Position numbers and translations under genes: made by a program. The notes beneath the pieces were generated by a model that saw only the letters and a program-made list of their open reading frames with translations, ran no database searches and was not told the DNA's origin. From positions 1 to 64,000 of the forward strand of contig NZ_LGCN01000040.1 of assembly GCF_001279005.1 (NCBI RefSeq): 64,000 bases of DNA, given 5' to 3'. This document shows, in pieces, positions 24,353-56,778 of the stretch. How positions within the stretch are numbered: the stretch's first letter is position 1; every line of letters starts with the position of its first letter. This DNA comes from Streptomyces caelestis. GTDB taxonomy: Bacteria > Actinomycetota > Actinomycetes > Streptomycetales > Streptomycetaceae.

Positions 24353-24371
24353 GCCCGCGTCGACCGCGGGC
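24353..24371 (+). terminator. Hairpin after the mca operon
   Basis: GCCCGCG and CGCGGGC form a 7-bp stem with a TCGAC loop, immediately after the stop of the small membrane protein gene. Confidence 0.55.
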
Positions 24372-24436
24372 GGTCGTGCCTTCCCCGGCGCCTCAAGGGC
24401 CCGGGGGAGGCACCCCGCGAGCGCCGGGCCGCGCGG
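24368..24436. repeat. Dispersed repeat, copy 1 (sister of the insert in the PfkB gene)
   Basis: Two blocks occur here without interruption. Block A (24368 to about 24416) begins GGGCGGTCGTGCCTTCCCCG. Block B (about 24413-24436) contains GCGCCGGGCCGCGCG. The same two blocks occur at 42529-42577 and 42659-42681 inside the PfkB kinase gene, there separated by about 80 bases. Each block A carries the self-complementary pair CCCC/GGGG around an AAGGGCC core. Confidence 0.6.
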
Positions 24437-41781: not shown

Positions 41782-43014
41782 GTGACCGCCACCGGACCCT
41801 GCAACGCCCCCGACGTCGTGGACGTCGTCGCGCTCGGCGAGTCCATGGTGACGTTCCTGCCCTCCCGGCCGGGCCGCCTCGCCGACGTCCCCTCCTTCGA
41901 CCGGGGCATCGGCGGCGCGGAGTCCAACGTGGCGTGCGTGCTCGCGGCGGCGGGCCACACCACCCGGTGGATCAGCCGGGTCGGCGCCGACGGCTTCGGC
42001 GACCACCTCGTCGAGGCGATCGGCGGGTACGGCGTCGACGTGTCCCACGTCCGCCGCGACCCGGCCCGCCCCACCGGCGTCTACTTCCGCACGGCCGGCG
42101 ACCGCGCCACGGACGCCCACGAGGTCGCGTACTACCGGGCGGGCTCGGCGGCGTCCGCGATGTCGCCGGCCGGCGTGGACCTGGACGCCGTACGCGCCGG
42201 ACGCGTCCTGCACCTGTCCGGCATCACGGCGGCGCTCTCCTCCGGCTGCCTGGACCTGCTGCGGGAGCTGACCGCCCCCCACCCCGCCCGGCCCCTGGTC
42301 TCCTTCGACGTGAACCACCGCCCGAGCCTGTGGCGCGACGCCCACGGCCCGGAGGTCCTCCTGGACCTGGCGCGCGGCGCGGACATCGTCTTCGTGGGAG
42401 AGGACGAGGCGGAGCAGGCCTGGGGCGTCACGGGCGGCCCGTCCCGGATCAGAGAGGCGTTGCCCGAACCGGAGATCCTGGTCGTCAAGCAAGGAGCACG
42501 GGGGGCAGTCGTGTTCCACGCTCCCCGCGGGCAGTCGTGCCTCCCCCGGAGCCCGGAAGGGCCTGGGAGGCGCCCCCAGGGCGACGGGGGTCCCCCCGCT
42601 CGAGAGAAGCCGAGAGCGGGGGAGGAGCCGAGAGAGGGGGAGGGCGGGCGCGACGGCGCCCCGCAGGCGCCGGGCCGCGCGACCCGCCTCCGCCCAGCGC
42701 CGGCACAGGGCACCTGTGAACCCGCTCTGAAGGTCGACGTGGTCGCCACCACCGGCGCCGGCGACGCCTTCGCCGCCGGCTTCCTCTCGGCGACCCTCCG
42801 GGACCTCCCCGTACGCGACCGCCTGCGCCACGGCCACCTCATGGCCGCGGCCGCCCTCACCACCCCCGGCGACCTCGCCGCGCCCCCGCCCCGCGCCCTC
42901 GCCGACCGCCTCGCCGCCCTCGACGACACCGCGTGGGGGAGACTGCGACTCGGCCCCGGCTGGATCCGAGCCGATGAACACGAAGGGCCCGAGAAGGAGG
43001 CACGCACCCCATGA
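41782..43014 (+). CDS. PfkB family carbohydrate kinase with an internal repeat-derived insertion
   Basis: A 410-residue ribokinase-fold enzyme, close to 2-keto-3-deoxygluconate kinases. N-terminal signatures are ALGESMVTFLP and FDRGIGGAESNVA; the catalytic base is Asp328 in TTGAGDAFAAGF. Normal members have about 340 residues. Here about 60 extra residues (about 248-313, Pro/Gly/Arg/Glu-rich) separate VVKQGARGAVVFHA from LKVDVVATTGAGD. The DNA of that stretch belongs to a dispersed intergenic repeat and keeps the frame. It lies in a loop near the ATP-binding region, so activity may be reduced or kept. GAGGAG precedes the GTG start by 12 bases. The stop overlaps the IclR start (ATGA). Confidence 0.85.
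   Translation: MTATGPCNAPDVVDVVALGESMVTFLPSRPGRLADVPSFDRGIGGAESNVACVLAAAGHTTRWISRVGADGFGDHLVEAIGGYGVDVSHVRRDPARPTGVYFRTAGDRATDAHEVAYYRAGSAASAMSPAGVDLDAVRAGRVLHLSGITAALSSGCLDLLRELTAPHPARPLVSFDVNHRPSLWRDAHGPEVLLDLARGADIVFVGEDEAEQAWGVTGGPSRIREALPEPEILVVKQGARGAVVFHAPRGQSCLPRSPEGPGRRPQGDGGPPAREKPRAGEEPREGEGGRDGAPQAPGRATRLRPAPAQGTCEPALKVDVVATTGAGDAFAAGFLSATLRDLPVRDRLRHGHLMAAAALTTPGDLAAPPPRALADRLAALDDTAWGRLRLGPGWIRADEHEGPEKEARTP
42529..42681. repeat. Dispersed repeat, copy 2, inserted in the PfkB kinase gene
   Basis: Block A (42529-42577, begins GGGCAGTCGTGCCTCCCCCG) and block B (42659-42681, contains GGCGCCGGGCCGCGCG) match copy 1 near 24.4 kb. Between them lies a further stem: CCCCCGCTC at 42593-42601 with its complement at 42614-42622, a sequence type common between Streptomyces genes. 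GGGCAGTCGTG is also found at 42503-42513, 26 bases before block A, as a direct repeat. Confidence 0.7.
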
Positions 43015-56385: not shown

Positions 56386-56778
56386 ATGAGGACGACGGCG
56401 TCACGGCGACCGGACGACCGGGGCCAGGTCACCATCGAGTTCCTCGGCATGACCCCCACGATCCTCGTGACACTGGTGGTGCTGTGGCAACTCGTGCTGG
56501 TGGGGTACGCGTTCACGCTCGCGGGGAATGCTGCGGACGAGGCCGTACGGGCGGCCACGGCGGCGGCGCCGGGCGCGCGCCAGGGCGCCTGCCGGGCGGC
56601 CGGGCTGGACAAGCTGTCGGGAGCGTGGGCGGGAGGGGCGACCGTGGACTGCGCGACCTCGGGCGGTTTCGTCACCGCCGACGTGGAGCTGGACGTCCCC
56701 CTCCTCTTCCCCGGCGTCCTCTCCCTCCCCCTCGACGTGGAGGGGCACGCGGGCGCGGTCGAGGAGGAGACGGACTGA
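56386..56778 (+). CDS. TadE-like pseudopilin, first copy
   Basis: A 130-residue minor pilin. Its N-terminus has the prepilin-peptidase type site: Gly13 followed by QVTIEF with Glu at +5, then a hydrophobic helix (about 22-46). Two cysteines (QGACRAAG and TVDCATSG) could form a disulfide in the extracellular domain. TadE proteins are needed for Flp fibre assembly. GGGGATGAGG lies upstream, 4 bases after the stop of the CpaE gene. Confidence 0.87.
   Translation: MRTTASRRPDDRGQVTIEFLGMTPTILVTLVVLWQLVLVGYAFTLAGNAADEAVRAATAAAPGARQGACRAAGLDKLSGAWAGGATVDCATSGGFVTADVELDVPLLFPGVLSLPLDVEGHAGAVEEETD

Follow-up and report, generated by a model that had tools for sequence, protein, structure and literature searches.

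The nearest precedent for the locus described here is the protein-coding palindromic repeats (RPE) of Rickettsia. RPEs are dispersed repeats that lie between genes and also in frame within conserved Rickettsia protein genes; one RPE-bearing enzyme was assayed, and its insertion was discussed as neutral (PMC2229807). GTAG/CGTC-tagged REPs are short extragenic palindromes, some of which fall within open reading frames, and two Xanthomonas species have different REPs at nearly the same position of recB (PMC3733652). Enterobacterial RU/ERIC-type elements are small intergenic repeats that are translated within genes (PMC2759123, PMC2229807), and terminal inverted repeats and target-site duplications are tabulated for ERIC (PMC2229807).

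A 64,000-nt stretch of the Streptomyces caelestis genome (contig NZ_LGCN01000040.1, positions 1 to 64,000; hereafter the window) contains a PfkB-family sugar kinase gene that likewise combines a mostly intergenic repeat with an in-frame insertion for which the empty site is present in relatives. RPEs and the Streptomyces kinase inserts are alike in being dispersed, present between genes and also found in frame in conserved genes. They differ in that the bacteria are unrelated, and in that the Streptomyces case comprises several unrelated families, one loop, three reading frames and polymorphism among strains. The recB site offers a precedent for reuse of one position, as in the kinase loop; the kinase elements are modular and exceed REPs in length, and the main text of the REP study (PMC3733652) does not mention Streptomyces (0 occurrences). 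The termini of the kinase element's copies were placed by eye, and the left copy of an 11-bp repeat beside it belongs to the kinase core. Searches of mainly open-access literature, at the level of titles and abstract openings, gave no description of such in-frame repeats in Streptomyces; passages of PMC1590033 and PMC2267715 contained nothing on these repeats, and five 15-mers of the repeats had 0 occurrences in the open-access literature searched. What this locus adds is a free-living actinobacterium and a single site that unrelated families occupy across many species. Here nature has repeatedly turned non-coding repeats into coding sequence, and both empty and filled alleles exist among close relatives and strains, so that the neutrality of such segments and the present mobility of the intergenic repeats become testable. 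A further lesson is that a long protein in Streptomyces may owe its length to repeats and not to domains.

The kinase open reading frame (Table 1) matches PF00294 with an E value of 2.4e-46 (best stretch, residues 14-253) and carries the GAGD motif that is present in its orthologues. The core has sequence and fold in common with 2-keto-3-deoxygluconate kinases (PDB 1v19 and others), of which 0 residues align to the insert; against the solved structure 1v19, residues 13-246 and 315-372 are aligned with nothing between. A mediocre AlphaFold2 model (mean pLDDT 64, from an input alignment of 33 sequences) places strands at residues 241-246 and 311-314 with no secondary structure in between, and residues 255-308 have pLDDT <50. 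The initial annotation had described about 60 extra in-frame codons beginning at 42503; the segment is real and comprises ~64 codons, and that start was ~17 bases too far left because the left copy of the 11-bp repeat is conserved core.

Table 1. Positions of the kinase gene, its insert and element A within the window.
Feature	Position	Strand	Remarks
PfkB-family sugar kinase gene, 2-keto-3-deoxygluconate kinase-like	41782..43014	+	410 codons including insert
Extra codons 247-310 relative to short empty loop	42520..42711	+	~64 codons, tip of kinase beta-hairpin before GAGD
Element A copy, dispersed intergenic repeat	42527..42697	+	apparently full-length; boundaries approximate, by eye
Optional module B of element A	42542..42581	+	
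Optional stem-loop module Cst of element A	42583..42625	+	perfect 9-bp stem 42593-42601/42614-42622
Two tandem 18-bp copies	42604..42639	+	6 codons each; 89% alike
Left copy of 11-bp direct repeat	42503..42513	+	core codons G-A-V-V
Right copy of 11-bp direct repeat	42529..42539	+	within start of element A
Intergenic element A copy in window	24364..24435	+	outside predicted genes

The insert holds a copy of a dispersed repeat, element A, both ends of which resemble (as read by eye) the ends of intergenic copies. Both blocks of the repeat at 24.4 kb were recovered in it, as had been claimed, with a 79% match between 42525-42588 and 24364-24428 and an 89% match between 42655-42681 and 24409-24435, and the further stem-loop is found in module Cst. 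Inverted arms, including the perfect 9-bp stem, are present in the insert, yet its predicted RNA fold is unremarkable relative to shuffles (z -1.16; 23/200 shuffles as good), so a special RNA structure is not supported; Rfam models gave 0 matches to 42300-43000 at E up to 1. The 11-bp direct repeat also exists, but its interpretation as a target-site duplication made by insertion was rejected: the repeat is a coincidence, since its left copy encodes the conserved core G-A-V-V and the repeat is absent from that position in three relatives that carry element A (L063, L064 and L065).

Element A is widespread in its own genome, where 51 matches were found including the kinase copy, more than expected by chance given that the best other match is 80% identical with an E value of 1.2e-42. 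Among the 30 best own-genome matches, 28 lie outside predicted genes (the predicted coding fraction of the window is 85%; gene prediction used an in-house script that scores codons, with the window as its training set). The own genome has 63 occurrences of the 15-bp start of the element, which is present in 131/392 genomes; the reversed control was scattered at 0-3 per strand. Stops in all six frames of 29 own copies (kinase copy included, L047 left out) number 44 versus 51.1 expected, and 102 versus 104.6 in the flank control. A special lack of stop codons beyond composition was therefore discarded, and the open frames of the element, whose opposite strand is open as well, are attributed to composition.

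The kinase gene was detected at E up to 1e-75 in 303/392 genomes of the genus. Of 157 loci, 3 were discarded as duplicates and 2 because a contig end truncates them, leaving 152 non-redundant, complete loops; G108, whose contig ends at the locus, was left out. These loops come from half of the 303 genomes (an initial set plus the best-scoring listed) and are skewed to close relatives. Loop length ranges from 22 to 179 codons, and is understated for L119 and L152, where the left anchor lies inside the loop. Alignment of orthologues, which had been suggested as a way to define the empty site, gives 23 codons as the commonest loop (36/152), with 22-25 codons in 49/152. Loops of 23-31 codons are found in 20/20 related kinases, of which 13 belong to other genera and 7 are paralogues from the same genus (23 codons in 15, 24-31 in the other five), and the short hairpin is therefore probably the ancestral state; among the kinases compared, only the loop of this gene has grown far. 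The frame is kept in 152/152 orthologues with 0 stops, left and right anchors having been sought in any frame; GAGD is one of the two anchors, so this count covers only loci that possess it. Eight loci missed at the first pass were checked by eye, and 6 are in frame and 2 are cut by contig ends. The contigs of L076 and L083 stop inside the loop, as expected where repeats break assemblies. Six other orthologues (L007, L014, L028, L030, L143 and L175) contain short in-frame tandem repeats at the same position, for which reason the loop may also grow by slippage.

Two further repeat families, F and V, occupy the same loop. With a family call defined as a score above the maximum of 456 randomised loops (first-order Markov copies), A was called in 24 of the 152 loops, F in 14 and V in 5; 38 loops have at least one family, and A and F occur together in five. 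The F count covers plain F or F with its own inner insert, a borderline F call (L081, 18 versus 17) was dropped, and the family consensus strings were written partly from the same loops, so the calls are not blind. Among the 69 loops of at least 36 codons, 31 lack A, F and V and consist of tandem repeats or unassigned sequence. The exact F 29-mer occurs in 9/10 genomes searched, at 1-71 copies (reversed control 0), its 24-bp core in 209/392 genomes (reversed control 0 in the rows shown), and 86/93 exact copies lie outside predicted genes. V is found at 1 to 9 places per genome in seven genomes, one mismatch allowed; 16/20 copies examined fall outside predicted genes, and this kinase accounts for the remaining 4. 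In G320, G252, G132 and G272 the places are few, with at least one in each ~15-27 kb from the kinase and others at up to ~90 kb, a pattern that would fit either local spread of copies or orthologous sites common to the genomes. A candidate family D in the L009 orthologue has 2 exact copies in that genome, one at the kinase site, and is not claimed. Strains differ by whole modules: among public proteins named S. pseudogriseolus, some have module B and some lack it, and the same holds for Cst, which also varies among those named S. fungicidicus (names per sources). A low-sensitivity search with the combined A+F insert of P0078 as query returned 5 proteins among 485 candidates, all of them this kinase. 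Segments are thus present in many orthologues, but they belong to unrelated families, differ in frame and length and share no conserved peptide, which argues against the conserved domain that the initial annotation had named as a refuting observation.

We assign a probability of roughly 0.8 to the interpretation that element A entered a tolerant hairpin tip of a functional kinase and is translated there, with frame-keeping changes retained. A GC-rich dispersed element built of modules B and Cst would have entered the tip of the beta-hairpin, where almost any peptide may be accepted, and would be translated as part of the enzyme; insertions and rearrangements that keep the frame would survive, and others would be purged along with the kinase. 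The high GC content of the repeats leaves many of their frames open, which would make in-frame insertion easy. At the level of DNA, the proposed conversion of a non-coding element into protein sequence is borne out by the open frame, the dispersed intergenic element and the empty site. Activity of the kinase, presence of the insert in the protein, passive retention and the way in which the repeats move are points that we infer, and tolerance of the hairpin tip appears to be the simplest account.

Frame use and composition were compared between inserts and cores. An exact 9-mer at the start of A is present in 14/24 A loops, in frames 0, 1 and 2 in 5, 1 and 8 cases, respectively. The codon-position signature of the gene is absent from the inserts and present in short loops: GC at codon positions 1/2/3 is 0.77/0.78/0.81 in A inserts, 0.77/0.55/0.93 in the cores of A carriers and 0.69/0.56/0.94 in loops <36 codons. 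Across 12 insert-carrying pairs (not mutually independent), dN/dS is 0.17-0.31 in the core and 0.36-1.38 in the insert, the latter a rough measure given that in some A pairs the alignment joins inserts read in different frames, and substitutions in the inserts are spread across the three codon positions. The insert value is <1 in 9/12 pairs, which may reflect either a degree of constraint or a bias introduced by such cross-frame alignments. The core of the window kinase, with a dN/dS of 0.205 against G330, is under purifying selection, as are the cores of the other carriers.

Three unrelated families at one site imply at least three entries into the kinase loop. As one orientation is used throughout and carrier status follows the tree, each family may have entered few or many times. 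A possible, though less favored, history is one or a few old insertions per family in place of many separate ones, followed by spread or loss through descent, deletion and interspecies recombination. All 61 of 61 element calls in loops share one orientation, which fits few insertions per family given that the other strand is open too; F carriers mostly cluster on a quick core tree, and the strain differences observed concern modules inside an existing element. Against this history stand the three or more entries required by unrelated families, and the presence of V at two distant places and of 23-25-codon loops among carriers on that tree, which is weakly supported in places. Fewest-change counts (gains and losses together) are 14 for A, 6 for F and 2 for V.

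It is more speculative, and on balance rather unlikely, that the hairpin is a true landing site that families active in a Streptomyces genome re-enter repeatedly, with the same process turning repeats into linkers and tails of other Streptomyces proteins; if so, the hairpin would preserve a history of repeat movement and give the protein a segment that varies among strains and on which selection may act.

Before correction for the tree, carriers have more genomic copies than other genomes, with medians of 7.5 versus 1 for A (p 1.6e-6) and 67 versus 8 copies for F (p 1.2e-6). With the tree accounted for, there are 5 (A) and 2 (F) supported independent pairs, and none is significant.

Less probable still is that the loop is a selected hypervariable segment that tunes enzyme stability or interactions or, via mRNA hairpins, the expression of an iclR-like downstream gene. 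Length variation is indeed concentrated at the loop, in that GAGD lies 64 residues from an LGPGW-like motif in 137/140 orthologues measured, while 118/137 have an N-terminal distance of 197-200 (26/152 are without one of the two motifs), and the paralogues remain short, also in two A-carrying genomes (L320 and L321). The absence of a conserved peptide, the use of several frames, the fast substitution in inserts and an RNA fold no better than shuffles all speak against selection, and passive tolerance of the tip remains the preferred reading. That the kinase is a decaying pseudogene is very improbable: ~64 codons of non-coding origin might suggest decay, as the initial annotation had allowed in proposing a disabled enzyme, but the frame and GAGD, already seen to be kept in the window gene, are kept throughout the orthologues and the cores of insert carriers have low dN/dS, so that disabling is not supported and the kinase is probably functional. 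Repeats do break assemblies, including the two orthologue contigs that end in the loop, but an assembly or annotation artefact is extremely unlikely, since inserts occur in many genomes, several of them within one contig, and in many public proteins, among them a cluster containing the window protein with 6 member sequences on 2 contigs (longest, 189 kb; the window contig is 162 kb) whose representative, P0001, has an identical insert except for one changed residue.

Other Streptomyces genes also contain repeats of these families, read in frame either internally or at a terminus: F in either orientation or, in L042, A. Of the 93 exact F copies examined (36/37 of G246, the kinase copy being left out, 32/32 of G357 and small numbers from further genomes), 7 are in predicted genes, named here from their translations: a phosphoribosyltransferase-like gene in three genomes (L190, L201 and L246), internal positions in an ABC exporter (L206) and an NRPS-like gene (L275), and terminal positions in a transporter tail and a permease start (L249 and L210). 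Where a gene ends within 150 bp of F, the two have the same orientation in 50 cases and opposite orientations in 34, which gives no clear rule. Element A also has a weak match in the window (38 columns, 82%) at 56562-56598 on the minus strand, inside a predicted gene at 56449-56775.
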